A DNA stretch of 64,000 nucleotides from Eubacterium maltosivorans. Its GTDB lineage: Bacteria; Bacillota; Clostridia; Eubacteriales; Eubacteriaceae. The stretch is taken from the NCBI RefSeq assembly GCF_002441855.2, contig NZ_CP029487.1:558001-622000 (forward strand). The letters run 5' to 3'. This document shows positions 20,641-39,050 of this stretch, piece after piece. A program made the translations under genes and the position numbers. Positions within the stretch are counted from its first letter, which is position 1. Each line of letters begins with the position of its first letter. The notes under the pieces were generated by a model that saw only the letters and a program-made list of their open reading frames with translations, was not told where the DNA came from and ran no database searches.

Positions 20641-20676
20641 GGGAAAGTCCGCTGTATGATTTTTATAAAAAGAAGA

Positions 20677-21411: not shown

Positions 21412-21479
21412 GATTTTCCCTCCTTATTCAATTGTAAATAGAAAAATAATAGCGTTTACACAAAAACAAAACTATAACT

Positions 21480-21686: not shown

Positions 21687-21694
21687 TTGGAGTT

Positions 21695-23245: not shown

Positions 23246-23277
23246 AATAATTTCCTTCCTCTCAAAAAATTCTGTGC

Positions 23278-23514
23278 TTAATGCGCGTCTTCAGGGCCGA
23301 TCTTTAATTTGTAGGTTTCGGGATTATCAGCCAGCTTCTGGATAAGTACCTTGCAGGTAATACAGAGCTGAATGGTCTCAAAATTTTTGTTCTTTTCAGC
23401 CAAATCCTGAACTTTATTGATCTCATCCCAGGTCAGCAGGCGGAGTTCCTCCGCTTCCTTTAATGTATAGGCGGATTTATCCCGGATATAGGGCAGAACA
23501 TCTTCAATTTTCAC
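23278..23514 (-). CDS. Small conserved-looking protein upstream of flotillin
   Basis: The 78-residue product begins at a GTG with AAAGGAGG on the minus strand (about 23520-23527). It has no membrane helix. The middle part, LRLLTWDEINKVQDLAEKNKNFETIQ, looks helical, and two cysteines occur as CITC near residues 50-53. It is not a family I recognise. The 32-bp gap to the flotillin gene and the shared strand indicate an operon, so it may be a cytosolic partner of the scaffold. Confidence 0.7.
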   Translation of the reverse strand: MKIEDVLPYIRDKSAYTLKEAEELRLLTWDEINKVQDLAEKNKNFETIQLCITCKVLIQKLADNPETYKLKIGPEDAH

Positions 23515-23827
23515 GGTTTACCTCCTTTAATATAACCATTTCAACCATCTTGATTTCTTATATCTCCTTTCTTAATCCCATTATAGCATGTTCATCTTAT
23601 TTTGTGGCGCTTTTCGAAAAATTTACCAGTTATTGATTTAAGGCGGTGATTGGGGTAAAATAAAGAAAGAAGGCCGCTGATGGCGATCATCACGCAAAAA
23701 ACGCGAAAAAACTCTAAATTTCAGCGCCCTTTCACGAAGCGTTCATAAAACCGTCACATTCTCCATTTAGAATAAAGCTATCAACAAAAATAAAAGCGAT
23801 ATGCGACTTAAATAAATGGAGGAACAA
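23515..23827. promoter_or_regulatory. Divergent control region: flotillin operon / htrA operon, with an 11-bp-periodic operator
   Basis: This 313-bp gap separates two divergent operons. Four TTCA-like direct repeats start at 23720, 23731, 23742 and 23753 (the last is GTCA), exactly 11 bp apart, immediately before a TAGAAT -10 box (23768-23773). No good -35 box is present. This is the layout of promoters activated by OmpR/PhoB-class response regulators, and such a regulator is encoded in the operon downstream. Confidence 0.6.
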
Positions 23828-25063
23828 ATGAACGATCAGTATACAAATAATCAATTTACAAACAATAATGATGAAGAACCAAAGGTAGAAAACGCTCTGG
23901 TGCCCATTGACGGCGACCAGAAAAAAAAGAAAAAACGGTTTGCGGGTAAAAATGTGTTCGCGAAGAAAACCGGGGCCATGATGGCAGTGGGTCTGGTGCT
24001 CTCGGGCGCCTGTGGTTTTGGCGGCGGTATGCTGGCCAGCAGTCTGGGGGGCAACAATAAAAGTGTGATGTACCAGTCCGTGGAGCGTACCAGCACCAAT
24101 TCCAATGAGACCAGTAATTCCGGCGCCATGACCACCCAGCAGATCGCTGAGTCGGCGGGCAACTCTGTTGTAGAAATCAAGACCGAAACAGTGACCAAGG
24201 ACAGCCGGCTTCAGCAAGCAGTGTCCGAAGGCGCTGGCAGCGGCGTGATCGTCACCAATGACGGCTATGTGGTGACCAACAACCATGTGATCGACGGCGC
24301 CAGCAAGATTACCGTCACTCTGAAATCCGGCCAGAGCTATGAGGCAAAACTGGTCGGCACGGATGCCACCTCAGATGTAGCGCTGCTCAAAATCGACGCC
24401 AATGATCTGCAGCCGGCTGTCATGGGCGATTCGGACAAGCTGAGCGTGGGCGAGACCGTTGTGGCGATCGGGAACCCGCTTGGGGAACTGGGCGGTACAG
24501 TTACCGACGGCATTGTCTCAGCCTTGAACCGTGAAATCACCATCGACGGGGATACCATGAACCTGCTTCAGACAAACGCGGCCATTAATCCCGGCAACTC
24601 CGGCGGCGGCCTGTTCAACGAATACGGCGAGCTGGTGGGAATCGTGGACGCCAAGTCAACGGGCACTGGCGTGGAAGGCCTTGGCTTTGCCATCCCGATC
24701 AATGATGTGAAAACAGTGGTCGAGTCCTTATCTCAAAACGGCTATGTAAAGGGACGTCCGAGCCTTGGCGTGTCTTTGGTGGATGTCAACTCAGCTGAAA
24801 CCGCCATGCAGTACCGTGTCTCTGAAATGGGCGTATATGTGGCCAAGGTGGCGGACAGCTCCGGAGCGTCAGCGGCGGGCATCCAGTCTGGCGATATGAT
24901 CGTCTCTGTGGACGGCACGGCAGTCTCAAGCGCTGCGGATGTCAAGACTGCTATTAAGAGCCATCAGGTAGGCGACACTGTTAAAATCGAAGTGCAGCGC
25001 GGCGGCAGCATGCTGACCCTAAACGCCACACTGGGAGAGGAAACCCCCACCACGAATAACTAA
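23828..25063 (+). CDS. htrA: HtrA/DegP-type trypsin-like serine protease with PDZ domain
   Basis: This membrane-anchored quality-control protease has 411 residues from the ATG at 23828 (GGAGGAA at 23818-23824). The N terminus is hydrophilic, with a KKKKKRF patch, then one helix (about residues 52-72), so the catalytic part lies outside the cytoplasm. The triad is visible as VTNNHVIDGA (His about 152), TSDVALLKID (Asp) and NPGNSGGGLF (Ser). One PDZ domain occupies about 320-405. It is followed 20 bp later by a response regulator and kinase, an arrangement like CssRS controlling HtrA in Bacillus. Confidence 0.95.
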   Translation: MNDQYTNNQFTNNNDEEPKVENALVPIDGDQKKKKKRFAGKNVFAKKTGAMMAVGLVLSGACGFGGGMLASSLGGNNKSVMYQSVERTSTNSNETSNSGAMTTQQIAESAGNSVVEIKTETVTKDSRLQQAVSEGAGSGVIVTNDGYVVTNNHVIDGASKITVTLKSGQSYEAKLVGTDATSDVALLKIDANDLQPAVMGDSDKLSVGETVVAIGNPLGELGGTVTDGIVSALNREITIDGDTMNLLQTNAAINPGNSGGGLFNEYGELVGIVDAKSTGTGVEGLGFAIPINDVKTVVESLSQNGYVKGRPSLGVSLVDVNSAETAMQYRVSEMGVYVAKVADSSGASAAGIQSGDMIVSVDGTAVSSAADVKTAIKSHQVGDTVKIEVQRGGSMLTLNATLGEETPTTNN

Positions 25064-25083
25064 CAGAAAAACGAGGTAAAGAA

Positions 25084-25752
25084 ATGTACCGGATTCTAAT
25101 GGTTGATGATGAGGAGAAAATACGGGCGATTGTAAGAAAATACGCGGAATTTGAGGGCAATGAGGTCGTCGAGGCCGCTGATGGTATGGAGGCAGTGGAA
25201 CTCGCCAAAAGCCAGGATTTTGACATCATTATTCTGGATATTATGATGCCAGAGCTTGATGGCTTCTCAGCCTGTAAGGAAATCCGTAAATATAAGGATA
25301 CACCGGTTATCATGCTCTCCGCCAGAGGTGAGGAGTATGACCGGATCCATGGTTTTGAACTGGGCATTGACGACTATGTCGTCAAGCCCTTTTCGCCTAA
25401 GGAGCTGATGATGCGCGTGGGTGCGATTCTCAAACGGAGGGGCGGTGCCAAGGAGAACAGAGACGTGGTCAAAATTGGAGACCTGGAGGTGGATTTTGCC
25501 GGGCGCCGCGTCACGATTTCCGGAAAACCGGTTGAGATGACGCCAAAGGAGTATGATCTCTTTTTTTACATGGTGCGCAACCGGGGGATCGCCCTGACGC
25601 GGGAAAAGCTCATTACAAATGTCTGGGGCTATGATTTTTATGGCGATGACCGCACCCTGGATACGCACATTAAGCTGCTGAGAAAAAGTCTGGGTGATTA
25701 CAGCAGGTGCATCGTGACACTGCGCGGAGTAGGATACCGTTTTGAGGCTTAA
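25084..25752 (+). CDS. OmpR-family response regulator
   Basis: The 222-residue protein has a receiver domain (MVDDEEK acidic pocket, phospho-acceptor Asp in IIILDIMMPELDG near residue 51, Lys in VVKPFSPKEL) and a C-terminal winged helix (about 125-222, ending GVGYRFEA). GAGGTAAAG precedes the ATG. It overlaps the histidine kinase gene by 11 bp and follows htrA by 20 bp. By analogy with CssR it should activate htrA, and hence itself, on secretion or envelope stress. The four 11-bp repeats at 23720-23756 are its likely site. Confidence 0.95.
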   Translation: MYRILMVDDEEKIRAIVRKYAEFEGNEVVEAADGMEAVELAKSQDFDIIILDIMMPELDGFSACKEIRKYKDTPVIMLSARGEEYDRIHGFELGIDDYVVKPFSPKELMMRVGAILKRRGGAKENRDVVKIGDLEVDFAGRRVTISGKPVEMTPKEYDLFFYMVRNRGIALTREKLITNVWGYDFYGDDRTLDTHIKLLRKSLGDYSRCIVTLRGVGYRFEA

Positions 25753-27226
25753 GAATACCAGCATTAAATGGAAGCTTTTCGCCTATATCGCCCTTTTTGC
25801 AGCGGTCATGATCTTTGTGATCTGGCTCTTCCAGATCGTCTTTTTAAACGGCTTTTACCGCCAGACAAAGATCAGTGAGCTTAAATCACTGGCCAACACC
25901 ATCTCCGCCAATATTGACAGCAACGATTTGAGCAATATTGTAACAGAGGTGGCGGGGCGGAACAATATCTGCGCGAAGATCACCGATACCGAAAATAATG
26001 TGGAGATCAACGTGGACACAGTTCCCCGCTGTGTGCTGCACCAGATGACCGCCCAGGATCTGGCGAACCTGTATCTGCAGGCCAAACAGCACGGCGGCTC
26101 CTATTTTGAGAGCTTCTCCAAGGACAGCTACCAGCTGATTAACATTCAGAGCAGCGACGGCCGCCAGGGGGTGATCCCTGAAAAGAAATTTGAGCGGGAT
26201 GAAAACCTGATTTACACCCAGATCATTACAGGCGGCAGTGGCAGACAGTATGTGATCATGCTGAACACCATGATCTCGCCCGTCAACACCACAGTACAGA
26301 CCCTGCGTTCCCAGCTTTTTTATATCAGCATGGTATTCATGGCGCTTGCCCTTATCTTTGCAGCCATTATGTCTAAGAAGGTCTCAAAGCCCATTATCAA
26401 GATTAATGAAAGTGCCAAGGAGCTCGCAAAGGGCAATGTGGCGGTTCACTTTGATGGAGAAGGCTACCGGGAAATCACAGAGCTCAACGATACGCTGAAC
26501 TACGCGGCGGAGGAGCTTTCAAAGGTGGAAAACCTGCGGCGTGAGCTGATCGCCAATGTTTCCCATGACCTGCGCACACCCCTAACCATGATTACCGGCT
26601 ATGCCGAGGTCATGCGGGATATTCCAGGTGAAAACACACCGGAAAACGTGCAGATCATCATTGACGAGGCCAACCGCCTGACAAGCCTGGTCAATGATAT
26701 GCTGGATATCTCCAAGCTTCAGGCCGGCGTGCAGGTCTTAAACGAAGCCCCATATAATCTGACTCAGAGCATCCGCCGGATTCTCACAAGGTATACAAAG
26801 CTCATCGAGCAGGAAGGATATCATATACGTTTTGAGGCGGATCGGGATGTCTTTGTAAAGGCTGACGCGATCAAAATGGAACAGGTGATTTACAATCTGG
26901 TGAATAATGCCGTCAACTATGCCGGCGAGGATAAAACCGTTGTGATCCGCCAGAACGTCTCGGGAGATACAGTGAAGATCGAGGTGCTGGATCATGGCGA
27001 TGGCATCGAGGAGGCGCTGCTGCCCTATGTGTGGGACCGATATTATAAAATTGACAAAGCCCATAAACAGGCGTCCATTGGAACTGGGCTGGGGCTATCC
27101 ATTGTCAAGAATATCATGGAGCTGCATCACCTTCGCTTTGGCGTCAACAGCGCACCGGGAATGGGAAGCAACTTCTGGTTTGAAATGAAGATCATAGAGG
27201 ACAATACCGAAAAAAATCAAAATTAA
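25742..27226 (+). CDS. Sensor histidine kinase, HAMP-type
   Basis: The 494-residue kinase starts at a TTG inside the end of the response-regulator gene. Two helices (about residues 12-36 and 195-216) bracket a ~155-residue extracytoplasmic sensor domain. A HAMP segment, HisKA with the H-box NVSHDLRTPLTMITGY and HATPase_c with the N, G1 (DHGDGIE) and G2 (GTGLGLSIVKN) boxes follow. It is the cognate partner of the upstream regulator by overlap. The signal is probably envelope or secretion stress, given the htrA gene in the same operon. rnpB starts 37 bp after its stop on an independent promoter. Confidence 0.93.
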   Translation: MRLKNTSIKWKLFAYIALFAAVMIFVIWLFQIVFLNGFYRQTKISELKSLANTISANIDSNDLSNIVTEVAGRNNICAKITDTENNVEINVDTVPRCVLHQMTAQDLANLYLQAKQHGGSYFESFSKDSYQLINIQSSDGRQGVIPEKKFERDENLIYTQIITGGSGRQYVIMLNTMISPVNTTVQTLRSQLFYISMVFMALALIFAAIMSKKVSKPIIKINESAKELAKGNVAVHFDGEGYREITELNDTLNYAAEELSKVENLRRELIANVSHDLRTPLTMITGYAEVMRDIPGENTPENVQIIIDEANRLTSLVNDMLDISKLQAGVQVLNEAPYNLTQSIRRILTRYTKLIEQEGYHIRFEADRDVFVKADAIKMEQVIYNLVNNAVNYAGEDKTVVIRQNVSGDTVKIEVLDHGDGIEEALLPYVWDRYYKIDKAHKQASIGTGLGLSIVKNIMELHHLRFGVNSAPGMGSNFWFEMKIIEDNTEKNQN

Positions 27227-27228
27227 CG

Positions 27229-27257
27229 TTGATTTTACAGGCGTTTTGCGGTATACT
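27229..27257 (+). promoter_or_regulatory. Promoter of rnpB
   Basis: TTGATT (27229-27234), a 17-bp spacer and TATACT (27252-27257) predict a start at about 27264, which coincides with the first base of the RNase P P1 helix. Confidence 0.8.
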
Positions 27258-27263
27258 GACTAA

Positions 27264-27607
27264 GCTACTAAGCCAGATAATCGCGGGCAGCGCAGGCTGT
27301 CTGAGGAAAGTCCGAGCTCCGCAGAGCAGGGTGCCGGGTAACGCCCGGTGGAGGCGACTCCAAGGCAAGTGCAACAGAAAGTAAACCGCCGGCCTGGCCG
27401 GTAAGGATGAAAGGGTGAGGTAAGAGCTCACCAGTGGCGAGAGTAATCCGTCAGCTATGTAAACCCCACCTGGTGCAAGACCAAGAACGGATGTAAAAAA
27501 GGCGGCTGCTCGTCGCCGTCCAAATGGTAGGTCGCTTGAATCCATTGGTAACAATGGATCTAGACAGATGATTATCTAAGACAGAACTCGGCTTACAGAC
27601 TTAGTGG
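27264..27607 (+). ncRNA. rnpB: RNase P RNA, class A type
   Basis: This is the catalytic RNA that trims the 5' leaders of tRNA precursors. The universally conserved elements are present in order: GAGGAAAGTCCGAGCTCC near 27301-27318, the ACAGAAAGTAAACCGCC block (about 27374-27390), GGTAAGGATGAAAGGGTGAG, and the 3' AGAACTCGGCTTACAGAC near 27583-27600. P1 forms between CTACTAAG (27265-27272) and CTTAGTGG (27600-27607). The ends are estimated to within a few bases. Confidence 0.95.
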
Positions 27608-27627
27608 TATGAATTAAAAATGAAAGA

Positions 27628-27707
27628 CCCTTTCAAACAGCTTAAACAGGCGGTTTGAAAGGGATTTTTCTTTTTCAGGGCTCCTGATCTTTGACCAGGA
27701 GCTTTTT
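27628..27707 (+). terminator. Tandem terminators after rnpB
   Basis: The first hairpin pairs CCCTTTCAAAC (27628-27638) with GTTTGAAAGGG (27653-27663), followed by ATTTTTC. The second pairs GCTCCTG (27680-27686) with CAGGAGC (27695-27701), followed by TTTTTT. Confidence 0.9.
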
Positions 27708-27759
27708 TATATGAAGAAAGACGAGCGATTATTATTTTGAAATGTATCCTAATTAATAA

Positions 27760-27788
27760 TAGACAAGAACTAAAATAGATGCTATAAT
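27760..27788 (+). promoter_or_regulatory. Promoter of the desulforedoxin-like gene
   Basis: TAGACA (27760-27765), a 17-bp spacer and TATAAT (27783-27788) precede a ~40-base leader with AAGGAGGAAG. Confidence 0.75.
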
Positions 27789-27834
27789 AATGACGGTAAA
27801 ACGTTTATATCGAAGAACGAAGGAGGAAGATATT

Positions 27835-28164
27835 ATGAAGATCAATATGGATAAGGCTGTTGTTGAATTTATTCCAGAAAATCCGATTGAAACCGCTGAG
27901 CTTGAAGCGCTTTGGATTAAAATGGGGAACTGCGTGGGCGATAATAAGAAATTGTCACCGATCGGCGTATATATCCCGACAGAAAACAATGTGGCGCGCT
28001 TTCACATTGGTGGTTTAACAGAAGCAGAAGCAAAGGCTGCACCAGAGCTCCGGGCGCCTTTTGACTGTCAGGTTTACTGCCTGACCTGTAATAAGGTTCA
28101 ATCTGTAAAAGAAGGAGATTTAATTCCTTTCTGCTGCGGAAAACCCATGGAAATCATGGATTAA
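27835..28164 (+). CDS. Small protein with C-terminal desulforedoxin-like metal site
   Basis: The 109-residue product begins at ATG 27835 (AAGGAGG at 27820-27826; the in-frame reading from 27790 lacks a ribosome site). Residues ~1-75 are an unrecognised mixed domain with a single cysteine near residue 33. The last 32 residues contain C-x2-C, then a spacer, then C-C-G-K-P-M, as in desulforedoxin and the N terminus of desulfoferrodoxin, where four cysteines bind one iron. An additional cysteine precedes the site. A redox or oxygen-defence role is likely; the partner is unknown. It has its own promoter and terminator. Confidence 0.75.
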   Translation: MKINMDKAVVEFIPENPIETAELEALWIKMGNCVGDNKKLSPIGVYIPTENNVARFHIGGLTEAEAKAAPELRAPFDCQVYCLTCNKVQSVKEGDLIPFCCGKPMEIMD

Positions 28165-28179
28165 TCATCGAGTATTCAC

Positions 28180-28226
28180 AGCTCTTCTGGTGCAGGCGGT
28201 CCGCTTTGTGAAGAAGGGCTTTTTTA
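28180..28226. terminator. Terminator between convergent genes
   Basis: AGCTCTTCT (28180-28188) pairs with AGAAGGGCT (28212-28220) with one G.T pair, enclosing a smaller GCGG/CCGC hairpin. Six T follow. Confidence 0.75.
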
Positions 28227-28244
28227 TTTTTTTGAAAAAAGAGG

Positions 28245-29015
28245 TCAGCTTCTTAAGCCGACCCCTTTTTCAATCAGATACCAGCAAATGCCATAAAGCA
28301 CAATGATAAAAAGGATGAGGATCATCAGAGACCAGACGACCGGGACATCCGTTACGCCAAGAAATCCAAAGCGAAAGCCTGAGACCATATAGACAATGGG
28401 ATTCACCTTTGATACGGCCTGCCAGATCGGCGGCAGCATTGAAATTGAATAGAATACGCCGCCCAGATAGGTTAATGGCTGCAGCACAAAGGTCGGCACA
28501 ATGGATACATCGTCAAAAGACCTGGCAAAGATGCCGTTCAGCAGTCCAGCCAGCGAAAACAAGACGGCAGTCATCAGCAGGGTCACGAGGATGATGGGCC
28601 AGGAAAAGACATGAAGGGGCACAAAAAATAATGAAATCCCGGTAACGAGGGCCCCGACCAGGATGCTGCGTCCCACCCCGCCGGCGACGAATCCGAAAAT
28701 GATCACCTGGGTGGGCACCGGCGCCACCAACAGTTCCTCAATATTTTTCTGAAATTTTTGAGAGAAGAAGGAGGAGGCGACATTGGCATAAGAGCTCGTG
28801 ATGACAGACATCATGATGAGCCCGGGCACAATGAACTCCATATAGGAAAAGCCGCCCATTTCTCCAATCCGGCCGCCGATCAGGTTTCCAAAAATAACGA
28901 AATACAACGATGTGGTGATGACCGGCGGCACTAGGGTTTGTACCCAGATGCGCAGATAGCGGTTGGTTTCTTTTGCTGCCAGGCGTTTTAGCGCGGTAAA
29001 ATATAGTTTAAACAT
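28245..29015 (-). CDS. ABC-2 type exporter permease
   Basis: The 256-residue protein has six predicted helices and the ABC2-membrane signature near residues 100-180 (RSILVGALVTGISLFF, VPTFVLQPLTYLGGVF). Length and pattern match the YadH/NodJ group of exporter permeases. It overlaps the end of the ATPase gene by 8 bp, so the two form one transporter. The substrate is unknown; homologues export drugs, lipids or polysaccharides. Confidence 0.92.
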   Translation of the reverse strand: MFKLYFTALKRLAAKETNRYLRIWVQTLVPPVITTSLYFVIFGNLIGGRIGEMGGFSYMEFIVPGLIMMSVITSSYANVASSFFSQKFQKNIEELLVAPVPTQVIIFGFVAGGVGRSILVGALVTGISLFFVPLHVFSWPIILVTLLMTAVLFSLAGLLNGIFARSFDDVSIVPTFVLQPLTYLGGVFYSISMLPPIWQAVSKVNPIVYMVSGFRFGFLGVTDVPVVWSLMILILFIIVLYGICWYLIEKGVGLRS

Positions 29016-29943
29016 TTTTTCCCTCCGATTGATGTTTTACATCGGTGATTTTTAAGAACAGTTCTTCCAGGCGGTTGGATTTGTTCCGCATGGAAGCGAC
29101 CTTTATCCCTTGCCGCGTGAGCTGCTCGAAGATGCCATTGACCCCCTGGTCACGCTGGACCTCGGCGACAAGGGTCCGGCTGTCCTCAAAATAATTTTTA
29201 TACCCGCTGATGACGGGTTTGTGATCAAAAGGTTCTAAATCAAAAATAAAGGTTTCAAACTGTAATTTTGACAACAGGTTTTTCATGCTGGTGTTCTCGA
29301 TCAGCTCACCGGACTGAATAATGCCGATATTGCGGCAAAGCATTTCCGCCTCCTCAAGATAATGGGTCGTCAGAATAATGGTCGTCCCCTGTGCGTTCAG
29401 GTTTCGCAGAAAATCCCACATTTCACGTCTCAGCTCAATATCGACTCCGGCGGTGGGCTCGTCCAAAATAAGCAGACGCGGTTCGTGCATCAATGCCCGC
29501 GCGATCATCAAACGCCGCTTCATTCCGCCGGAAAGCATCCGCGCCCGTTCATGGCGTTTCTCGAGCAGGCCGGATTGCCTGAGGTATTTTTCACTGCGCT
29601 TCAGAGCCTCTTTGTGGGGAACGCCGTAATAACCGGCCTGATTGACAACGATCTGTTCAACGGTTTCGAATGGATTGAAGTTAAACTCCTGGGGAACCAG
29701 GCCGATCTGCTGCTTTGCCTGCACAAGCTCCGTGTCAAGGTCATATCCGAATACCTTCACCGACCCGGACGTTTTATTGACCAGGGAGGTGACAATTCCG
29801 ATGGTAGTGGATTTTCCGGCGCCATTTGGTCCGAGCAGCGCGTAGAAATCGCCCTGCTCCACGACCAGATCAATGCCGCGCAACGCCACGACGCCCGATT
29901 CATATGTTTTCTTTAAATTTTTTAATTCGAGTGCAACTGTCAT
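29008..29943 (-). CDS. ABC-2 type exporter ATP-binding protein
   Basis: The 311-residue protein starts at the ATG whose ribosome site is GAGGAG on the minus strand; the in-frame ATG 24 bp upstream lies before that site. Walker A GPNGAGKST, signature LSGGMKRRL and Walker B LLILDEPTAGVD with the H-loop TTHYLEEAE are all present in the first ~215 residues. A ~95-residue C-terminal domain of the DrrA/YadG type follows. It energises the permease encoded immediately downstream (8-bp overlap). A sigma-A promoter lies just upstream. Confidence 0.94.
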   Translation of the reverse strand: MTVALELKNLKKTYESGVVALRGIDLVVEQGDFYALLGPNGAGKSTTIGIVTSLVNKTSGSVKVFGYDLDTELVQAKQQIGLVPQEFNFNPFETVEQIVVNQAGYYGVPHKEALKRSEKYLRQSGLLEKRHERARMLSGGMKRRLMIARALMHEPRLLILDEPTAGVDIELRREMWDFLRNLNAQGTTIILTTHYLEEAEMLCRNIGIIQSGELIENTSMKNLLSKLQFETFIFDLEPFDHKPVISGYKNYFEDSRTLVAEVQRDQGVNGIFEQLTRQGIKVASMRNKSNRLEELFLKITDVKHQSEGKNV

Positions 29944-29979
29944 ATTTTTCTCCTCATTAACAAGCATTCTGTTCTTTCA

Positions 29980-30008
29980 ACTATAATTCACAGAGCCTGA
30001 ACCGTCAA
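29980..30008 (-). promoter_or_regulatory. Promoter of the ABC-2 exporter operon
   Basis: On the minus strand TTGACG (30008-30003), a 17-bp spacer and TATAGT (29985-29980) lie about 37 bp before the ATG. Confidence 0.75.
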
Positions 30009-30044
30009 GCAAAAAATGCGGTTTGAAAGCAGGACTGCTGAATG

Positions 30045-30138
30045 AAAAAGTGCGCCTAACAGGATGTTTCAAAAGCTACGGTCTACCAAGGGATAGGAGA
30101 GTATCGCGCTCATTGAAAATGTTAGGTGCACCTTTTTT
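30045..30138. other. Structured 90-base intergenic element of unknown function
   Basis: A 12-bp stem, GTGCGCCTAACA (30050-30061) with TGTTAGGTGCAC (30120-30131, one G.T pair), is flanked by an A tract on the left and six T on the right. Inside, TTTCAA (30067-30072) pairs with TTGAAA (30113-30118), and GATA/TATC form a small hairpin. The arms are symmetric enough to fold on both strands. I do not recognise it as a known riboswitch or terminator. Confidence 0.6.
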
Positions 30139-30339
30139 AATATATCAGATATTCGGGGCTTTTGCAAGAGCGGTTAAGCTAAGGTTTAGATATGTTATAG
30201 AGTATACCCTTTTATGGACTGCCGATATCTTTTTTATTCTGATGTTTAGAACCCGGGTCTTCGGGTATAAATATAAAAGAACACACATACCTCTTACTTA
30301 AATCAATTAATCTCTCCCCCAATTTACTCTCCCCAAGAG

Positions 30340-30371
30340 AAGCCCCTGATCTTCGGATCAGGGGCTTTTTT
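30340..30371 (+). terminator. UUCG-capped terminator without an identified gene
   Basis: A perfect 12-bp stem (AAGCCCCTGATC 30340-30351, TTCG loop, GATCAGGGGCTT 30356-30367) is followed by T on the plus strand only. No plus-strand coding gene precedes it in the gap, so it may end an unrecognised RNA or be a relic. Confidence 0.85.
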
Positions 30372-30429
30372 GCTGTAATTCGCTAAGATGCGGCAGTGAA
30401 ACTTGTGAAGAATATTCGTTCTCAAACAC

Positions 30430-30600
30430 TTGATTTTTGAAACGAATGTTTGTATAATAAGAGTGTCATCACTTTTCTTTGAGGGGATAATCGCGATAAA
30501 AAGACAGGGCAGAGTGGTCTTGCACAGTGACCAAAGCGAGGTCCGTGCATCGGTTGAAGCGCTCCATGCTCCTGAGCTGTACCGATTGTCCCCCCTCTAT
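30430..30600 (+). ncRNA. Candidate structured small RNA with its own promoter
   Basis: A promoter TTGATT (30430-30435)-N17-TATAAT (30453-30458) faces a region that folds into a rod. GAGGGGATAATCG (30481-30493) pairs with 30583-30597 over 13 bp, with a 2-base CC bulge. Large internal bulges follow, then an inner hairpin TGCAC..GACC/GGTC..GTGCA (30521-30549), and GCTC/GAGC (30561-30577) forms a small side hairpin. A ~145-base rod with a central bubble resembles 6S RNA in layout, but this is only a structural analogy. No convincing open reading frame with a ribosome site lies in it. Confidence 0.45.
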
Positions 30601-30697
30601 GGTTTTTCATTATCTGTTATCTGTGGCGCCTGCCTCTTTCCCGTCTCTTAAAAAACAAAAAATCGAATACAGTATTTTTCAAAACACAAAAATGATC

Positions 30698-32722
30698 TCA
30701 TGGTTTTATAAAGTTCGCAGCTTTCACAATAAGGCTGATGACAGCCTCGATACCCAGGGCGCCGCTGTCCAGAACCAGCTGGTAATTAGCAGGAATGCCC
30801 CAGACCTTTCCGGTGTAACGGCGGTAGTGGGCAGCCCGATCCCGATCTTTCTTTTTGGCGGCGGTAAGGGCGTTTTCAGGCGCAAGGCCGTATTCGGTAA
30901 CAATACGGTCCTTTTTAAAGGCAGTGCCAGCGTGGACGAATACCCGAAGGCAGTACGGGTCGTCCCTTAGAATATCATCGGCGCAGCGTCCGATAATGAC
31001 GCAGGATTCTCTCTGCGCCAGCGCTTTGATGACACGTCTCTGGGCTGAAAAGAGGCTGTCCAGAACACTCATCTTATTGGCACAGAAGAGGTTTTGCTCA
31101 AAGGCTTCATAATTTTTTTCAGAGAAGTCATATAACAGGCTTTGAGCGGTGAGCTCTTCCTCATGATTTGCGATGTAATCTGGGGAAAACCCGCTTTCTC
31201 TTGCCTCCAGAGCTAAGAGCTCTTTATCGTAGACTGCGATGCCCAGGGCCTGGCCTACCCGCTGTCCGATTTCAAGCCCTCCGCTGCCGTACTGCCGGGA
31301 AATGGTAATAATCAGATGGTGAGTGGAGGACTGTGTGGCAGCTGCCGCTTCCACGGGAGCGGCCTTTTGGGCCCGGGGTCTCATAAACAGGAGCACCACC
31401 ACCACACAGATAAACACGACTGCCGCAGTGGCGAGGAAGGAAGCCTGTATGCCACGAAGATCACCGCCAACTGTGGAAACAGAGGACATGACCGTCACAA
31501 AAGCCGCGCTCATGATCGCGCCGCCTACCTGCCGCACCGTGTTCATAATCGCTGTTCCGTGGGCGACCTCAACGTCGGCCAGAGCGTTGACCGACCAGGT
31601 CATGAGCGGCTGGAGCAGGGCGACGATGCCCAGCATGCGCAGCCCGTAAAATACTGTGATAAATAACAGTGAGGTGGATTCGCCTATAAAGGAAAGGGCC
31701 AGAGTGCCGCCTCCCAGAAAGGCAAGCCCTGCCACAGTCAGCAGGAAAGGTCCTCTCTTATCCAGGATCCTGCCTGTCACGGGATTCAGAAAGGCCAGAA
31801 ACAGCGCGCCTGGCAGCATGGTAAGCCCGGAAACTGTGGCGGAAAAGCCCCGAAGCGACTGGATGTAAATGGGCAGAAGCGTGGAGACCGACAGCATGGA
31901 GCCATAGGCGAAGACCAGCAAAACGGTGCCGAAAGTGAAATCCCGGTTTTCAAAGACGCTGAGATTCAGGAGCGGGTCGGAGATTTTAAACTGGCGCAGC
32001 GTAAAGAGAACAATGCAGACAGCGCCTGCCAGAAGCGGCGCCCAGGTCAGCCAGGAGGTAAAGCCATAGTTGCCAAAATCTGTGGCGGCGGTCAGGAGGC
32101 CGCTGAAGCCAAGTGTGGAAAGGACGACAGAGAGGATATCCAGCCGGCTGTCTGAGGACATGGACTCGTCGGGCATCTTGAGCAGGGCCAGCAGAATGCT
32201 GAGCAGCGAGAGGGCGCACATAATATAAAAGATCATCCGCCAGCCAAAGGCGTCCACGACCCATCCTGCAAAGGTGGGGCCAAAAGCCGGAGCAAAGCCA
32301 GTGGTCAGGCCCACAATGCCCATAATGGCGCCGCGGCGGTCGGGCTCATACAGGCGAAAGGTGACCACCTGAGGCAGCGGGAGAAGAATTCCGGCGCCCA
32401 GAGCCTGGATGATCCGTCCTGCCAGAAGCAGAAAGAAGCTGTTCGCGCAGGCAGCGGTGATGCTGCCTGCCAGAAAAAGAAAAATGGAGACAAGGTAAAG
32501 CTTTTTGGCTGAAAATTTTTCCATCAGGTAGCCTGTGCAGGGAATCATTACCCCTAAAAAAAGCAGATAAGCGGTGGTCAGCCACTGGCCTATCCCAGCG
32601 CCAATGTCAAATTCGACCATGATACGCGGCAGAGAAGCAGTCATGACCGTCTGATTAAGTGAGCTGATAAAGGCGCCGATGATAATGACCCCGATGATGA
32701 GTTTTCGGTTTTTAGACTGCAT
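30698..32722 (-). CDS. DHA2-type MFS exporter fused to a cytidylate-kinase-like domain
   Basis: The 674-residue protein has two parts. Residues ~1-455 form a 14-helix drug:proton antiporter of the EmrB/DHA2 type (LNQTVMTASLPRIMVEF in helix 1, GRIIQALGAGILLPLPQ near the helix-4 motif). After a short Ala-rich linker, residues ~470-674 match the cytidylate-kinase-2 family. IITISRQYGSGGLEIGQRV forms the P-loop-like start and VYDKELL the next conserved strand, followed by the lid-like KKKDRDRAAHYRRYTG stretch. It overlaps the upstream TetR gene by 11 bp, so the pair is a regulated efflux operon. What the cytosolic kinase domain does for the exporter is unknown. Confidence 0.85.
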   Translation of the reverse strand: MQSKNRKLIIGVIIIGAFISSLNQTVMTASLPRIMVEFDIGAGIGQWLTTAYLLFLGVMIPCTGYLMEKFSAKKLYLVSIFLFLAGSITAACANSFFLLLAGRIIQALGAGILLPLPQVVTFRLYEPDRRGAIMGIVGLTTGFAPAFGPTFAGWVVDAFGWRMIFYIMCALSLLSILLALLKMPDESMSSDSRLDILSVVLSTLGFSGLLTAATDFGNYGFTSWLTWAPLLAGAVCIVLFTLRQFKISDPLLNLSVFENRDFTFGTVLLVFAYGSMLSVSTLLPIYIQSLRGFSATVSGLTMLPGALFLAFLNPVTGRILDKRGPFLLTVAGLAFLGGGTLALSFIGESTSLLFITVFYGLRMLGIVALLQPLMTWSVNALADVEVAHGTAIMNTVRQVGGAIMSAAFVTVMSSVSTVGGDLRGIQASFLATAAVVFICVVVVLLFMRPRAQKAAPVEAAAATQSSTHHLIITISRQYGSGGLEIGQRVGQALGIAVYDKELLALEARESGFSPDYIANHEEELTAQSLLYDFSEKNYEAFEQNLFCANKMSVLDSLFSAQRRVIKALAQRESCVIIGRCADDILRDDPYCLRVFVHAGTAFKKDRIVTEYGLAPENALTAAKKKDRDRAAHYRRYTGKVWGIPANYQLVLDSGALGIEAVISLIVKAANFIKP

Positions 32723-33290
32723 TGTCAGAGCCCCCTGTTTTAAAGAAATAACCAGTCAGCAGCTTTTGAGCTGTGGACAGCAACGCTTCTGCGGGAAGGG
32801 AGGCTCCATTCAGAATCCAGGTCCGCAGGATGCTGAAGGTGATGCCGGAAAGGCCGGAAAGGATAAAAGGAACGTCCTCCGCGCATTCTGAAAGTGAGGC
32901 TGCCAGCGTCTGAAATTCGTTCTCGAAGCAGGCGTTGTTTGCCATCAGGAAAAGATAGCCGAGGCTGTTGCGGAAAAGCAGGGTCAGGAACTGGCTGTGG
33001 TCGTGCCAGTAAGTGAAATAGTCTGCCAGCGCCTCCAGAGGCGTTTGGAAAAGTCCCTCGGGCAGCTGATCCGCATACATGGAAAACAGTCTGTCCAGAG
33101 AATAGGTAAGGATATCCTCCTTTTGGGAAAAGTTTGTGTAAAAGGTCTGGCGCGAAACGCCGGCCTTTTCTGTAATTTCAGAGATTGTAATGGCCGGGAG
33201 ACTTTTTTTCTCCAGCAGCTCTGCAAAGGCCAGCGCCAGTGCCCTTTTGGAGCGGATAGCAGCGGGATTTTCGTATTTTTTTTCGTTCAT
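32712..33290 (-). CDS. TetR-family regulator of the MFS-kinase gene
   Basis: The 192-residue protein starts at the ATG giving MNEKKYENP; AGAGGTGA precedes it, and the in-frame GTG 12 bp upstream is part of that site. The N-terminal helix-turn-helix reads ITISEITEKAGVSRQTFYTNFSQKEDIL-like (about residues 32-59), and the C-terminal helical domain resembles the YbjK/TetR_C_33 type. It overlaps the exporter gene and should repress the operon until an exported compound binds. An inverted repeat lies over its own -35 box. Confidence 0.92.
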   Translation of the reverse strand: MNEKKYENPAAIRSKRALALAFAELLEKKSLPAITISEITEKAGVSRQTFYTNFSQKEDILTYSLDRLFSMYADQLPEGLFQTPLEALADYFTYWHDHSQFLTLLFRNSLGYLFLMANNACFENEFQTLAASLSECAEDVPFILSGLSGITFSILRTWILNGASLPAEALLSTAQKLLTGYFFKTGGSDNAV

Positions 33291-33316
33291 ATTACAGGTC
33301 ACCTCTTTCTTACTTT

Positions 33317-33352
33317 ACTATAACACATTGCAGAAAGTTTTACAATAGTAAA
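33317..33352 (-). promoter_or_regulatory. TetR promoter with overlapping operator
   Basis: On the minus strand TTGTAA (33345-33340), a 17-bp spacer and TATAGT (33322-33317) form the promoter. The inverted repeat TTTAC-AATA-GTAAA (33339-33352) covers the -35 box, as expected for autorepression. Confidence 0.65.
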
Positions 33353-33433
33353 TTTTTTTACAAATGTCTAACCTATAAAGGCGATCAATTTTAAATAAAG
33401 CAATATAAAATATTTTTATGTCACAGGCAAAAG

Positions 33434-33462
33434 TTGAACTTTTTGTGCAAGTAAGTTATAAT
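33434..33462 (+). promoter_or_regulatory. Promoter of the REC-HD-GYP-GGDEF gene
   Basis: TTGAAC (33434-33439), a 17-bp spacer and TATAAT (33457-33462) lie 62 bp before the ATG. Confidence 0.75.
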
Positions 33463-33524
33463 GAATTAAGACTTATTACAAAACAGTATTTATAGAGAAT
33501 TAAGTCTGTTTAGGGGAGCTGTTT

Positions 33525-35687
33525 ATGGATAATCAGGCAGAAAAAAGAAAGATACTCATCGTTGACGACATGGAGCTGAACCGCGCGCTGCTGTGCGAGA
33601 TGTTCCAGACAAAATATACGATATACGAAGCTGAAAACGGTGCGCAGGCACTGGAAATTCTGGAGCGGGAGAGCGAAAATATCGCGGTTGTGCTTTTGGA
33701 TCTCATCATGCCAGTGCTCGACGGCTTTGGCGTTTTGCAGGAAATGGAGCGTATGAGCCTGACTGGGCGGATACCGGTCATCATGATCACTGCTGAGAAC
33801 AGCGAGGGCGTCATGCAGCGGGGCTATGAGATGGGGGCCGCCGATATTGTCACCAAGCCCTTTAACCCCAATATTGTCATTCAGCGTGTCCACAACATTA
33901 TCGAGCAGTATACCCAGAAGCTCCACCTGCGCCAGCTGGTGGCTGAGCAGACAAGGGCGCTGCGGGAGCAGGCGGAGAAAATGCGTGAAAACAGCGCGCA
34001 GATGATCGATACGCTCAGCAGCATCATTGAATTTAAGAATACCGAATCTGTGTCTCATATACACAACGTGCGTGTGATTACCAGACTGCTTCTGGCTGAG
34101 TTCGCAAAGGGCCACAGCGAGTACGGTTTGTCCGACTCCCTGATTGAGATGATCTCCGAGGCGGCGGCCATGCACGATATCGGTAAGGTAGCCATACCGG
34201 ACAATATCCTCAACAAGCCCGGCCGACTGACCGATGAGGAATTTGAGATCATGAAGACCCATACCTCCCGGGGCAGCGAGATTTTGATGGAGCTGTCTGG
34301 TGTCCAGGATCTGGCTTACTATGACTACTGCTATGATATCTGCCGCCACCACCATGAGCGGTGGGACGGAGGCGGCTACCCTGATGGCCTGGCGGGCAAT
34401 GAGATCTCCATCTGGGCCCAGGCGGTGTCGCTGGCTGACGTTTATGACGCCCTGACCAGTAAACGGGTTTACAAGGACGCCTACACCCATGAAACCGCTG
34501 TCCAGATGATTTTAGACGGCGAGTGCGGGGTGTTTAACCCGCAGCTGATCGAGTGCTTTCTGACAGCGCTGCCTGAGCTTAACCGTTCCATGAAAGGCGG
34601 CGAAATGCTGACGTCGACGGTTACCGCGACCGGTGAGGTAACCATTCCGGAAAAGAAGAAAAAAGAGACTCATGGCGATCTTTCCAGCCGGACCCTATAC
34701 CTGTTAGAACAGGAGCGTCAGAAATATCAGATACTGTCTGAGCTTTCGGATGAGCTCATTTTTGAATATGACCTGCGCACAGATAAGCTGGTCTTTTCTG
34801 ACCGTTTTCAGATATTGACCGGAAAAGACCCGGTGTTCCCACAGATCAGCAGGATATTATCGGATGCGTCGCTGGTCAACGCCGAGGACTACAGCCGCCT
34901 TTACAGGATGCTTGAGCGCGTTACGCCGAACAGGCCGACCTGCAAGGCAGAGCTGCGCATCAATCTGGATGGCCAGGGGTTCCAATGGTACCAGGTATAC
35001 CTTTATCCCATCTGGGATATGGAGTTTGAGCCGGTATGCGTGAGCTACATCGGTAAGCTCATCAATGTGGAGGAGACCAAGCAGCGCAATCTGATGCTTA
35101 AAAAGGAAGCGGAGAGCGATCCGCTCACGGGGCTGTTAAACCAGCGGGCCATGCGGGAGCAGACGATTCTGGCGTTAAAGGACCGTCGTGTGAAGAATGC
35201 GGCCCTGTGCTTTGCCGACGTCGATAACTTTAAATCGGTCAATGATGAGCGCGGCCATCTGTTTGGGGATATGGTACTCAAGGAGGTGGCGGAGATCCTG
35301 ACCAGCAGCGTGCGCCATACCGATCTGGTAGGCCGTGTGGGCGGTGATGAGTTCCTGATTCTGTTCCACGATATCGTCGACCAGCAGGATATAGAAAGGC
35401 GTGTTGCGGCCATCTGTAAAAAGCTGAACAAACGCTTTAAAAGCTATGGCATTACCGGAAGTTTTGGCATTTCCCGTTATCCTCAGGATGGGGAGGATTT
35501 TGACATTCTTCTCCAGAAGGCGGATCAGGCCCTTTACCACTCCAAGGATCTGGGGAAAAACCAGTATAAGGTTTACGATGTCAGCTGCGCCAACCGGCCG
35601 TTCCGCTCTTCCCTGACCAGGGTGGATAACTATAACGAAAAAATCGAGGAGATGGCCAGGGAGTTAAAAAACAGAACAAGCAGTTGA
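33525..35687 (+). CDS. Response regulator with HD-GYP and GGDEF domains (cyclic-di-GMP turnover)
   Basis: The 720-residue cytosolic protein has a receiver domain (about residues 8-125, phospho-Asp in VVLLDLIMP near 59). A helical linker follows, then an HD-GYP phosphodiesterase domain (about 165-350) with HDIGK, HHERWDGGGYPDG and DVYDALTSKR intact. A PAS-like segment (about 405-535) leads to a GGDEF domain with intact GGDEF (about 606) and the inhibitory RxxD site (RHTD) five residues before it. Both the synthesis and the degradation of cyclic-di-GMP are therefore possible. No kinase gene is adjacent, so its phosphodonor is elsewhere. A terminator follows at once. Confidence 0.93.
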   Translation: MDNQAEKRKILIVDDMELNRALLCEMFQTKYTIYEAENGAQALEILERESENIAVVLLDLIMPVLDGFGVLQEMERMSLTGRIPVIMITAENSEGVMQRGYEMGAADIVTKPFNPNIVIQRVHNIIEQYTQKLHLRQLVAEQTRALREQAEKMRENSAQMIDTLSSIIEFKNTESVSHIHNVRVITRLLLAEFAKGHSEYGLSDSLIEMISEAAAMHDIGKVAIPDNILNKPGRLTDEEFEIMKTHTSRGSEILMELSGVQDLAYYDYCYDICRHHHERWDGGGYPDGLAGNEISIWAQAVSLADVYDALTSKRVYKDAYTHETAVQMILDGECGVFNPQLIECFLTALPELNRSMKGGEMLTSTVTATGEVTIPEKKKKETHGDLSSRTLYLLEQERQKYQILSELSDELIFEYDLRTDKLVFSDRFQILTGKDPVFPQISRILSDASLVNAEDYSRLYRMLERVTPNRPTCKAELRINLDGQGFQWYQVYLYPIWDMEFEPVCVSYIGKLINVEETKQRNLMLKKEAESDPLTGLLNQRAMREQTILALKDRRVKNAALCFADVDNFKSVNDERGHLFGDMVLKEVAEILTSSVRHTDLVGRVGGDEFLILFHDIVDQQDIERRVAAICKKLNKRFKSYGITGSFGISRYPQDGEDFDILLQKADQALYHSKDLGKNQYKVYDVSCANRPFRSSLTRVDNYNEKIEEMARELKNRTSS

Positions 35688-35688
35688 G

Positions 35689-35715
35689 CAGAGGGGTTTT
35701 TGTCCCTCTGTTTTT
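35689..35715 (+). terminator. Terminator of the REC-HD-GYP-GGDEF gene
   Basis: CAGAGGG (35689-35695) pairs with CCCTCTG (35704-35710), followed by five T; it begins 2 bases after the stop codon. Confidence 0.85.
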
Positions 35716-35759
35716 ATGTTAAAATAGAAGCATCAAGCACATAAAAGGAGCAGAATAGC

Positions 35760-36731
35760 ATGAAAAAATATAATTGGGCGATCATTGGCACTGGCGTCAT
35801 CGGCAATGAGATGGCAAGGGCGCTGAAACAGGAAAACGGTGAGATCTATGGCGTTTATAACCATCACGTGGAAAAGGGCCGTGCCTTTGCGCACGAATAC
35901 GGGGTTCAGAAAGTCTTTGAGAGCGAGGAGGCTCTGCTTGCTGATCCGGAAGTGGATGTGGTCTATATCGGCACGCCCCACAACTATCATTACGCCACAC
36001 TGATGCGGGCTGTGGAGGCTGGCAAGCACGTTTTTTGCGAGAAGGCCATTACCGTGAATGCGCGGCAGCTGGAGACGGTGGCGGCCCTTGCCTCTGAGAA
36101 GGGCGTGGTGGTCATGGAGGGGATGACCATTTACCATATGCCGCTGTACCAGAGGCTGCGTGAGATCGTGGACTCCGGCGCCATCGGGAAGGTGAAGATG
36201 ATACAGGTCAACTTTGGCAGCTGCAAGGAATACGATGTGAAGAACCGCTTCTTCGACAAGGCGCTGGCAGGCGGCGCCCTCTTGGATATCGGCATCTACG
36301 CCATGTCTTTTGCCCGGTTTTTTATGGAGGCCAGGCCCAATGTGATCCTGACCACACCCCAGTACTTTGAGACCGGCGTCGATGAGCAGTCGGGCATTAT
36401 CCTGAAAAACGACCGGGGGCAGATGGCTGTCACAGCCCTGACCATGCGGGCCAAGCAGCCCAAACGCGGCGTGGTGGCCGGGGAGCTCGGCTACATTGAG
36501 GTGGATAATTACCCCAGGGCCCAAAGAGCGGTCATCACCTACACCAGTGATGGACGGCAGGAGACGGTAGAGGCCGGAAAAACCGGGGACGCGCTCTGCT
36601 ATGAGGTGCGCCATATGCAGGAGGCCATTGAGAGCAGGGCCGGCATCGCGCCCCTTGCCCTGAGCCGGGATGTGATGGAGATTCTGACCGCTGTGCGCGG
36701 GCAGTGGGGAATGCAGTACCCCTTCGAATAA
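35760..36731 (+). CDS. Gfo/Idh/MocA-family oxidoreductase
   Basis: The 323-residue protein has an N-terminal NAD(P)-binding Rossmann fold (WAIIGTGVIGNEMARAL, about residues 5-21). The conserved HVFCEKAITVN strand near 88-98 contains the catalytic lysine of the EKP-like motif, here EKA. The C-terminal beta-sheet domain with GGGALLDIG-like residues (AGGALLDIGIYAMSF) follows near 170-185. Family members oxidise or reduce sugars, inositols or dihydrodiols. The substrate cannot be told from the sequence and no sugar operon is nearby. It has a short upstream gap with a TAAAAT-like -10 box at 35718-35723. Confidence 0.88.
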   Translation: MKKYNWAIIGTGVIGNEMARALKQENGEIYGVYNHHVEKGRAFAHEYGVQKVFESEEALLADPEVDVVYIGTPHNYHYATLMRAVEAGKHVFCEKAITVNARQLETVAALASEKGVVVMEGMTIYHMPLYQRLREIVDSGAIGKVKMIQVNFGSCKEYDVKNRFFDKALAGGALLDIGIYAMSFARFFMEARPNVILTTPQYFETGVDEQSGIILKNDRGQMAVTALTMRAKQPKRGVVAGELGYIEVDNYPRAQRAVITYTSDGRQETVEAGKTGDALCYEVRHMQEAIESRAGIAPLALSRDVMEILTAVRGQWGMQYPFE

Positions 36732-36749
36732 TCAGAGCCCTGCCAAAAG

Positions 36750-36779
36750 CGGGCACAGCACATTTTTGCGCTGTGCCCG
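36750..36779 (+). repeat. Dispersed hairpin repeat, copy 2
   Basis: Stem GGGCACAGC (36751-36759) with GCTGTGCCC (36770-36778), plus an outer C-G pair, encloses ACATTTTTGC. No T run follows, so it is not a standard terminator. It lies 19 bp after the Gfo/Idh gene. Confidence 0.85.
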
Positions 36780-36818
36780 TCTCGGCAAAAGACATGGGCT
36801 TTATCATGATAAGTTCAC

Positions 36819-36847
36819 TTGATATTTAGTCCGAGTTGTAGTAGAAT
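36819..36847 (+). promoter_or_regulatory. Promoter of the membrane GGDEF gene
   Basis: TTGATA (36819-36824), a 17-bp spacer and TAGAAT (36842-36847) precede a leader of about 160 bases, in which I see no cyclic-di-GMP riboswitch consensus. Confidence 0.7.
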
Positions 36848-37013
36848 GGGTGGTAATATTAATCAGGGAAACTTTCATTTTATAGATTATATCGCTAAGG
36901 TATGCTGACCGATTACATCTGTGCCCCAGTCAAATACATTAGCCCGATTTAAAATAATCAACACTCCCGAAAACACAGACATAAAGGCATAAAACAGACA
37001 GGGGAAGGCAGAG

Positions 37014-39005
37014 ATGACAAAATTATTAAAAAAAATCCGTTTTACCACCATTGTTCTTATTTTGGGCGTGGCGCTGATTGTCAGCAGTGTTTTTTCATTG
37101 CTTACAATCCAGAATCTGGAGGGGAACGCCCGCGTGATCAATTACTCCGGCATTGTCCGTGGGGCAACACAGCGCCTGGTAAAGCAGGAACTGCACAATG
37201 AGCAGAACGACGCGCTCATCGGGCGGCTGGATATCATTCTGGAGGAGCTTGAGAACGGCGGAGAAAAGAATCATCTGATAAAGCTGGATAATCTGGAGTA
37301 TCAGGCGCTTGTGGACGCGCTTCAGGGTAAGTGGGGCGCGCTTAAAAACGCGATCTACGATTACCGCGCTGGCGGGACGGCCGGGCCACTCTACGAAATA
37401 AGCGAGGAATATTTCGGGCTTGCCGACCAGACGGTTTTTGCCGCGGAGCATTACACAGAGCAGGCAGTAAGAAACGCGAAGTATTTTCTGCTCCTGGTCA
37501 CCCTGATCTTCCTGATCATGGTGGTGGTCTGCGCTTTTTTTGCCTCCTCCCAGCAAAAACGCCGTGAGAAGCTTCTGGGCGATGAAAAGGAATCTCTGGA
37601 ACGGCAGATTCATTTAAACCAGATGCTGAACGATATCCGCGCGCCCCTCGACGAGCTGCCCGAGCTTATGTATGTTGCGGATTTGGAGACATACGACCTG
37701 CTGTTTATTAACAAGGCGGGTAAAGATACCTTTAACTTTAAGGCTACAGAGGGAAAGAAATGCTACGAGCTGCTCCAGGGTCTGGACGCACCCTGTCCTT
37801 TCTGCTCGACGCCAGAGCTGAAGCCAGAGGAGTATTATAACTGGGAGCATACCAACCCAATAACCGGGCGGCACTATCTATTAAAGGACCGCCTGATCGA
37901 GTGGGAGGGACGGCCCGCCCGGTTTGAGCTCGCCTTTGACTTGACCGAGGCCATGAAGGAAAAGCAAAACCTGAAAAATATGCTTGAGACTGAGCAGGTT
38001 ATCGTGGAGTGCATCCGCGATCTCTACCAGAACCATGACCTGAACCAGGCCATCCCTCTTTTTCTGGAGCGTATCGGAAAATTTCTCAGAGCAGACCGCA
38101 GCTATATTTTTGATCTGAGAGGCGAGTTTCTGAAAAACACCTATGAGTGGTGCGCTGAGGGCATCAAATCAGAACAGGGGTATCTGCAGAGTATTCCAAA
38201 GGACTATTTTGAGCGATGGCTGCGTGTCTTTGACGATCATGAATGCATGGTAATCGACGACTGTGAGGCGCTTAAGACCAGCGAGCCCAGGGAATATGAG
38301 GTGCTTTCCGCCCAGAATATCAAGCGGCTCGTGACCGTCCCGTTAGAACAGGACGGCGAGCTCTATGCCTGTATCGGCGTGGATAATCCGCCGCCGGAGC
38401 TGCTGCAGAACGCCGCGTCAATTTTGCAGACCCTGCGCTATTTTCTGATGCTGGCCATCCGGCGCACCGAGGATGAGGCAGAACTGACCAAGCTGAGCTA
38501 CTATGATACCCTCACCTCCTTTTACAACCGCAACCGCTATATTCAGGATCTCGAGACTTTCTCGGATTACGAGCGTTCTGTGGGCATTGTCTTCCTGGAT
38601 ATGAATGGCCTGAAGGAGGTTAACGACCAGTATGGGCATGGCAGTGGGGACCGGCTGCTGGTGGAATGTGCGCGCCGAATCCGGGAAGGGTTTGGCGAGA
38701 GCAATTTTTACCGCGTGGGCGGAGATGAATTTGTGGTCATTGACCTCGGAGATACCGAGACAGGATTCTCTGACAGGGTTGAAAGGCTGCGCGCATGCTT
38801 TGGACAGGACTCCCGCGTCAGTGTAGCTATCGGCGCGTACTGGACGTCCTGCGGGGCGGACATTGACGCGGCCGTCACCGAAGCGGACGAGAGAATGTAC
38901 TTGGACAAGCAGGTGTTCTATCAGGACCATCACACCTCTAAAAGGTACCGCTATATCAATGATGGCGCGGTTAATCCCCCGGAGGCACAGACAGGTGAAA
39001 ACTAA
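37014..39005 (+). CDS. Membrane GGDEF protein (PilJ-like sensor, PAS, GAF, GGDEF)
   Basis: The 663-residue protein has a helix at about 14-33, an extracytoplasmic four-helix bundle of the PilJ N-terminal type (VINYSGIVRGATQRLVKQEL), and a second helix at about 160-182. A PAS-like domain with the cysteine pattern CYELLQGLDAPCPFC (about 245-259) follows, then a GAF-like domain (about 335-480) and a GGDEF domain with intact GGDEF near 569. The RxxD inhibitory site is absent, so product feedback is not expected. It is a probable diguanylate cyclase sensing an outside signal. AGGGGAAGG precedes the ATG. Confidence 0.88.
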   Translation: MTKLLKKIRFTTIVLILGVALIVSSVFSLLTIQNLEGNARVINYSGIVRGATQRLVKQELHNEQNDALIGRLDIILEELENGGEKNHLIKLDNLEYQALVDALQGKWGALKNAIYDYRAGGTAGPLYEISEEYFGLADQTVFAAEHYTEQAVRNAKYFLLLVTLIFLIMVVVCAFFASSQQKRREKLLGDEKESLERQIHLNQMLNDIRAPLDELPELMYVADLETYDLLFINKAGKDTFNFKATEGKKCYELLQGLDAPCPFCSTPELKPEEYYNWEHTNPITGRHYLLKDRLIEWEGRPARFELAFDLTEAMKEKQNLKNMLETEQVIVECIRDLYQNHDLNQAIPLFLERIGKFLRADRSYIFDLRGEFLKNTYEWCAEGIKSEQGYLQSIPKDYFERWLRVFDDHECMVIDDCEALKTSEPREYEVLSAQNIKRLVTVPLEQDGELYACIGVDNPPPELLQNAASILQTLRYFLMLAIRRTEDEAELTKLSYYDTLTSFYNRNRYIQDLETFSDYERSVGIVFLDMNGLKEVNDQYGHGSGDRLLVECARRIREGFGESNFYRVGGDEFVVIDLGDTETGFSDRVERLRACFGQDSRVSVAIGAYWTSCGADIDAAVTEADERMYLDKQVFYQDHHTSKRYRYINDGAVNPPEAQTGEN

Positions 39006-39046
39006 AAAAGGGAGCACGGCACATTTCTGCGCCGTGCTCCTTTTTC
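39005..39046. repeat. Dispersed hairpin repeat, copy 3 (bidirectional terminator)
   Basis: Stem GGAGCACGGC (39011-39020) with GCCGTGCTCC (39031-39040) encloses ACATTTCTGC. A and T tracts on both sides extend the pairing. It lies between two convergent genes and can terminate both. Confidence 0.88.
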
Positions 39047-39050
39047 CGTT

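Follow-up and report, generated by a model that had tools for sequence, protein, structure and literature searches.

The element at positions 30408-30600 (+ strand) of the window, the whole 64,000-nucleotide stretch of DNA that we analyzed from a Eubacterium genome of 4,337,501 bp (G000), is on sequence grounds the 5' end of a decayed dinB2 gene, a gene for a Y-family polymerase. With modest confidence, we favor the interpretation that this surviving 5' portion of an inactivated SOS-type dinB2 now specifies an untranslated, structured RNA under LexA control and that this RNA is most likely regulatory.

The element lies in the gap that separates an ABC operon (− strand, first gene starting at 29967) from the end of an MFS gene (30698, − strand). 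Within this gap, the + strand carries one unit at 30241-30377 and a second, distinct one at 30408-30600. An earlier note had described a region without a coding gene, which holds for its present state, although it once was a coding gene; both the identity of the dinB2 5' remnant and the small-RNA-like unit upstream of it, with its own terminator, had been overlooked. The position of the remnant is orthologous in G000 and three congeners (G001, G002, and G003), to the left of the same response-regulator gene. The genes between the remnant and the response-regulator gene differ among these genomes, and no ABC genes occur in the stretch of G001 that was examined. Other features nearby include a long inverted repeat upstream of the ABC operon (30049-30137; GTGCGCCTAACA ... 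TGTTAGGTGCACC) flanked by T-runs on either side, for which we found no second copy in the G000 genome; the MFS transporter itself, which is fused to a cytidylate-kinase-like domain (30698-32722, − strand; MFS_1 E=5.1e-54, Cytidylate_kin2 E=8.6e-46); and a bacterial class A RNase P RNA (27265-27611, + strand; 283.9 bits).

A DNA search of 61 genomes detected the element in the three congeners. At a second site in G001, the same promoter and leader stand ahead of an intact gene for a Y-family DNA polymerase (Pfam IMS, PF00817, E=2.4e-43), which we named dinB2. The window frame from 30496 aligned in register with residues 1 to 31 of this intact G001 dinB2 (18 of 31 identical, BLASTP E=1e-9), identifying 30496-30588 (+ strand) as the former dinB2 codons 1 to 31; the homology stops after about codon 31. 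Model R1, which we also used to trace the distribution of the element, weakly cross-matched the 5' end of the intact dinB2 of G000 (1399497-1400762; E=0.067), and this match fits a dinB2 origin. DNA local alignments to G000 dinB2 exceeded all shuffles (100 each) for the remnants of the window (19 versus a maximum of 17), G003 (16 versus 14), and G001 (21 versus 19) and did not for that of G002 (15, with a shuffle maximum of 16). None of the four remnants exceeded its shuffle maximum (100 shuffles each) in alignments to G001 dinB2 or to dinB1. Due to these mixed DNA alignments, the dinB2 origin rests mainly on the in-register protein match together with the shared promoter and leader. The longer G001 remnant frame alone gave no significant BLASTP match (E=1.7).

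Y-family searches of G002 and of the draft genome G003 returned only dinB1 (48-49% identical) and a distant Y-family frame. In the window, dinB1 is another Y-family polymerase gene directly downstream of recA (19389-20624, + strand), and a pattern scan of its upstream region (19100-19400) found no LexA-type box. The intact G000 dinB2 has a LexA-type box and is divergent from a gene reading MCGRYVLYSDKEQAE (G000:C1:1399497-1401683; L024, L095), which we take to be YedK/HMCES-like.

All four remnants have lost the dinB2 start codon, the former ATG now reading GTA in G001 and ATA in the other three. The leader (30463-30495, + strand; 80-91% identity to the three congeners) contains the former ribosome-binding site GAGGGG at 30481-30486, and in none of the four remnants does an ATG, GTG, or TTG occur within 20 nt after it; an ATG is present within this distance in the intact G001 dinB2.

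The sigma-A promoter that the earlier note had placed ahead of this region exists as TTGATT-17-TATAAT (30430-30458, + strand), with the -35 TTGATT at 30430-30435, the -10 TATAAT at 30453-30458, a 17-nt spacer, and 10 of 12 consensus matches. Promoter-like sites alone were not beyond chance (4 in 2 kb versus 2.1 +/- 1.6 in shuffles), but the relatives change this assessment, as the promoter is conserved in all three other genomes with the locus. Two LexA-box-like palindromes accompany it: GAATATTCGTTC at 30410-30421 (+ strand), upstream of the -35 and differing by no more than one change in each of the four remnants, and AAACGAATGTTT at 30440-30451 (+ strand), between the -35 and -10 and likewise altered by no more than one change in any copy. 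The intact G001 dinB2 has GAATATGCGTTC for comparison with the upstream box. The inner box shares its form with the lexA promoter box GAACAAATGTTT, found in all four genomes with lexA, the G000 recA box GAACGAACGTTC, and the G000 dinB2 box GAACGAATGTTT. Both remnant boxes are each one or two letters off GAAC-N4-GTTY, the form at lexA, recA, and G000 dinB2, so that the promoter carries LexA boxes of the genus form, as expected of an SOS regulon member. These similarities suggest that LexA binds the remnant promoter boxes. A scan of a sequence collection with a 20-mer of the promoter gave 20 loci, among which the sole Eubacterium title was E. callanderi FD; near relatives of the window's genome may lie outside this collection.

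During normal growth, LexA on the box between the -35 and -10 would block transcription, and LexA would probably also occupy the upstream box. DNA damage would then lead to LexA cleavage and to synthesis of the RNA, predicted to be an untranslated structured product of approximately 130-140 nt whose most likely role, once induced by SOS, is regulatory. Translation as dinB2 is impossible, since the ATG has been lost and pairing in the closing helix of the fold described below occludes the former ribosome-binding site. A search for antisense targets by leader complements yielded 17 sites, the leader itself included, versus 14 in the control, an outcome that offered no candidate beyond background.

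The strongest alternative, which we regard as a realistic but lesser prospect, is that the element is a plain gene fossil: a dinB2 copy was truncated in the ancestor of the genus, its LexA promoter persists because it decays slowly or because bound LexA does no harm, and whatever transcript arises is noise. We weighed this alternative against rates of sequence change, with the fourfold sites of neighboring genes as the neutral yardstick. Of these genes, those lying in the regions retrieved were used, which gave six in G002, three in G003, and five in G001. Fourfold-site identity to G000 was 0.65 for G002, 0.68 for G003, and 0.61 for G001. The corresponding identities of the promoter, leader, body, and 3' arm were 0.93, 0.89, 0.75, and 0.85 for G002; 0.86, 0.91, 0.70, and 0.94 for G003; and 0.75, 0.80, 0.71, and 0.52 for G001. 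Contrary to the expectation for a fossil, the promoter and leader together show slower change than fourfold sites in each of the three comparisons, which share G000 and are not independent (G002, 83/91, P=8.5e-9; G003, 80/91, P=7.9e-6), and do so even against the most distant copy (G001, 70/91, P=7.4e-4). In line with a fossil, the body is near the neutral yardstick (P=0.045 for G002, 0.41 for G003, and 0.038 for G001), the 3' arm of the closing helix has been lost in G001 (17/33 identity), and a simple scan listed no intrinsic terminator near 30600.

Of 40 family genomes searched with model R1 (80 candidates scored per genome), four contain the element, each of them a member of this genus, and it was not found in the other 36; a match was absent from G004, a genome that is 80% complete. 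We also considered a match in G010 (L008/L075) as a homologue in another genus. Its fold looks similar to that of the remnant, and the adjoining frame is presumably TnpB-like. The match is AT-rich and promoter-like, lies on a 3.4-kb contig, and was not found by R1; we took it as chance.

The fold of the element provided further evidence on whether more than a fossil is present. The structured RNA spans 30483-30593 (+ strand) and consists of four helices with conserved pairing: a closing helix in which GGGGATAATC pairs with GATTGTCCCC (30483-30492/30584-30593), two middle helices of the consensus fold (30496-30508/30571-30582 and 30512-30516/30560-30564), and an inner hairpin (30521-30527/30543-30549), which in the window contains a single A-C mismatch. 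The closing stem and the inner hairpin of the earlier note were thus both recovered, the hairpin at the very place proposed, but its large asymmetric bubble is not conserved and gives way to internal loops between the four helices. The folding energy of the window alone is unremarkable, as a fossil would predict (z of -1.39, a value matched or bettered by 15 of 200 shuffles). Among 100 segments sampled from 20000-40000, a quarter likewise had a z of -1.4 or lower. Single-sequence z values for the remnants were -1.5, -2.3, -1.2, and -2.4. The two intact dinB2 5' ends gave 0.05 and 0.58 and hence are without such a fold, which argues against a fossil.

Conservation of the paired bases in relatives, a check proposed in the earlier note, was found in the four-genome alignment. 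RNAalifold, applied to the four remnants aligned by sequence only, gave -26.2 kcal/mol, with a column-shuffle z of -3.17 (4 of 2,000 shuffles as low). As controls, we used 38 coding blocks, representing 19 places on both strands with 40 shuffles each, which came from the two of eight genes tried that were available in four genomes. The control blocks had a mean z of -0.48 (sd 0.87); two were at or below -2, the lowest was -2.68, and none of the 38 reached -2.98. The reverse strand of the remnant had a z of -3.58 (0/500), and because it scores as well, the fold alone gives no strand.

In the named structure, 88.6% of cells were paired, versus 32.5-52.0% with slid partners, and seven cells were changed on both sides, versus zero to one when slid. 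Few shuffles reached the observed values for paired cells (4/500), double-change cells (4/500), or the covariation score (6/500); the remaining two of the five pair measures were weak (pairs with double change, 32/500; further pair types, 329/500). The inner hairpin holds three of the five doubly changed pairs, and the closing helix has none, with 5 of its 10 pairs broken in G001. From a total of 31 pairs, 28 form in the window, 30 in G002, 27 in G003, and 24 in G001. With only four sequences, of which G002 and G003 are a close pair (fourfold identity 0.76), the compensatory changes amount to few events. The fold is conserved with compensatory change beyond chance, as judged from four sequences only and with a z of -1.84 (14/300) when G001 is left out, and this conserved pairing also speaks against a plain fossil.

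A quite different reading, in which the element serves a gene downstream of it as an SOS-controlled promoter or leader, appears unlikely. A + strand gene begins approximately 0.3-0.4 kb past the RNA in G002 and G003; it is a GPP34-domain gene by Pfam in G002, and the G003 gene has the same sequence start. In the window, the next gene (the MFS-kinase fusion) is convergent, and the next long gene in G001 is a response regulator. The element is conserved and the downstream gene is not.

We consider it very improbable that the locus is a gene for a short SOS-induced peptide, akin to LexA-controlled small toxins. The old dinB2 frame runs without a stop as far as 30651 in the window and further on in G001, where an extra base sits in the leader, and G003 has frames of 93 and 37 amino acids further down behind weak ribosome-binding-site-like letters, the shorter one in the old dinB2 frame. 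Against a peptide, G002 and G003 are each missing one base inside the old dinB2 frame, no frame of at least 15 amino acids preceded by a ribosome-binding site was listed in the window, G002, or G001, and all four remnants lack a start codon close behind the old ribosome-binding site. Pfam gave zero matches for the window and G001 frames of the remnant, and an excess of third-position substitutions was not consistent among the remnants. Because of the Pfam result, the lost start codon, the frame deletions, and the inconsistent third-position excess, we rejected a small protein.

Least probable is a 6S or second 6S RNA, which the element resembles only in size and rod-like shape: an Rfam scan of 30460-30610 returned zero families at E<=10, RF00013 was absent at E<=10 over 29960-30720, the sequence is dinB2-derived, and a full-length 6S RNA lies elsewhere in the genome (G000:C1:3963685-3963863; 79.5 bits versus a cut-off of 46.4; the only match at E<=10). 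Of the 6S-like novel small RNA proposed in the earlier note, the small RNA candidate is upheld by a promoter and paired bases conserved in relatives, but the 6S assignment fails.

The adjoining unit (30241-30377, + strand) has a SigB-type promoter, GTTTAG-N13-GGGTAT at 30244-30268, a C-rich body, and a GC hairpin with a T-run at approximately 30339-30372, which we read from the sequence and which the simple terminator scan did not list. Across its family, the promoter takes the form GWTTAA-N13/14-GGGTAT (GGATAT in two copies), followed by a 5' segment GAACACACATACCTCTTACTT and a GC hairpin with a T-run. Model R2, built from 21 copies, gave 38 strong matches (E<=3.7e-8) in four genomes, building copies included (10 in G000, 8 in G001, 9 in G002, and 11 in G003), and, among the rest of the 40 genomes, six had weak matches only (E of 4e-4 to 0.01); 81 candidates were scored per genome, and the counts may be low. 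Rfam gave zero families at the gathering score for 30241-30377. Another copy of the unit lies approximately 0.8 kb upstream of G000 dinB2, an order that echoes that of the window. G000 has one sigma factor above the SigB/F/G cut-off, and a sigB is annotated in E. limosum (PMC5651825). The unit looks like a member of a stress-sigma-controlled small-RNA family, and its C-rich stretches could pair with Shine-Dalgarno sequences.

Going beyond the LexA-controlled structured RNA that we favor, we tentatively suggest that the element may be a bacterial SOS regulatory RNA that acts in the DNA-damage response and arose from a translesion-polymerase gene, now dead, of which it was the 5' end. It is conceivable, at a similarly tentative level, that the element took over a complete promoter and LexA operator from the parent gene, that the coding part disappeared, and that compensatory change reshaped the leader and codons into an RNA. 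We offer with the same reserve that the RNA may stand in for the lost polymerase in two species. The origin of new bacterial small RNAs has mostly been inferred from faint traces. At this locus, the donor gene, an intact paralogue, the loss of the start codon, and the gain of structure can all be read within one genus, and the presence of a ready-made regulatory input makes the transition from a dead gene to a regulated RNA directly testable. The analysis also corrects the 6S label and points out an adjoining multicopy small-RNA-like family.

Compared with LexA-controlled Y-family polymerase genes of the dinB/umuC type (PF00817), the element has in common the promoter, the LexA-type boxes, the leader, and the first 31 codons, but it has neither a start codon nor, in two of four genomes, an unbroken frame, and its conserved RNA fold was not seen in the two intact genes. 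Our literature search did not find a title describing this RNA. LexA-controlled RNA genes are known from enterics, at the istR-2/tisB locus and at symE/symR. These differ from the element in organism and sequence, and no antisense partner or toxin frame like theirs was found at the element, but they and, by prediction, the element alike place RNA output under LexA.
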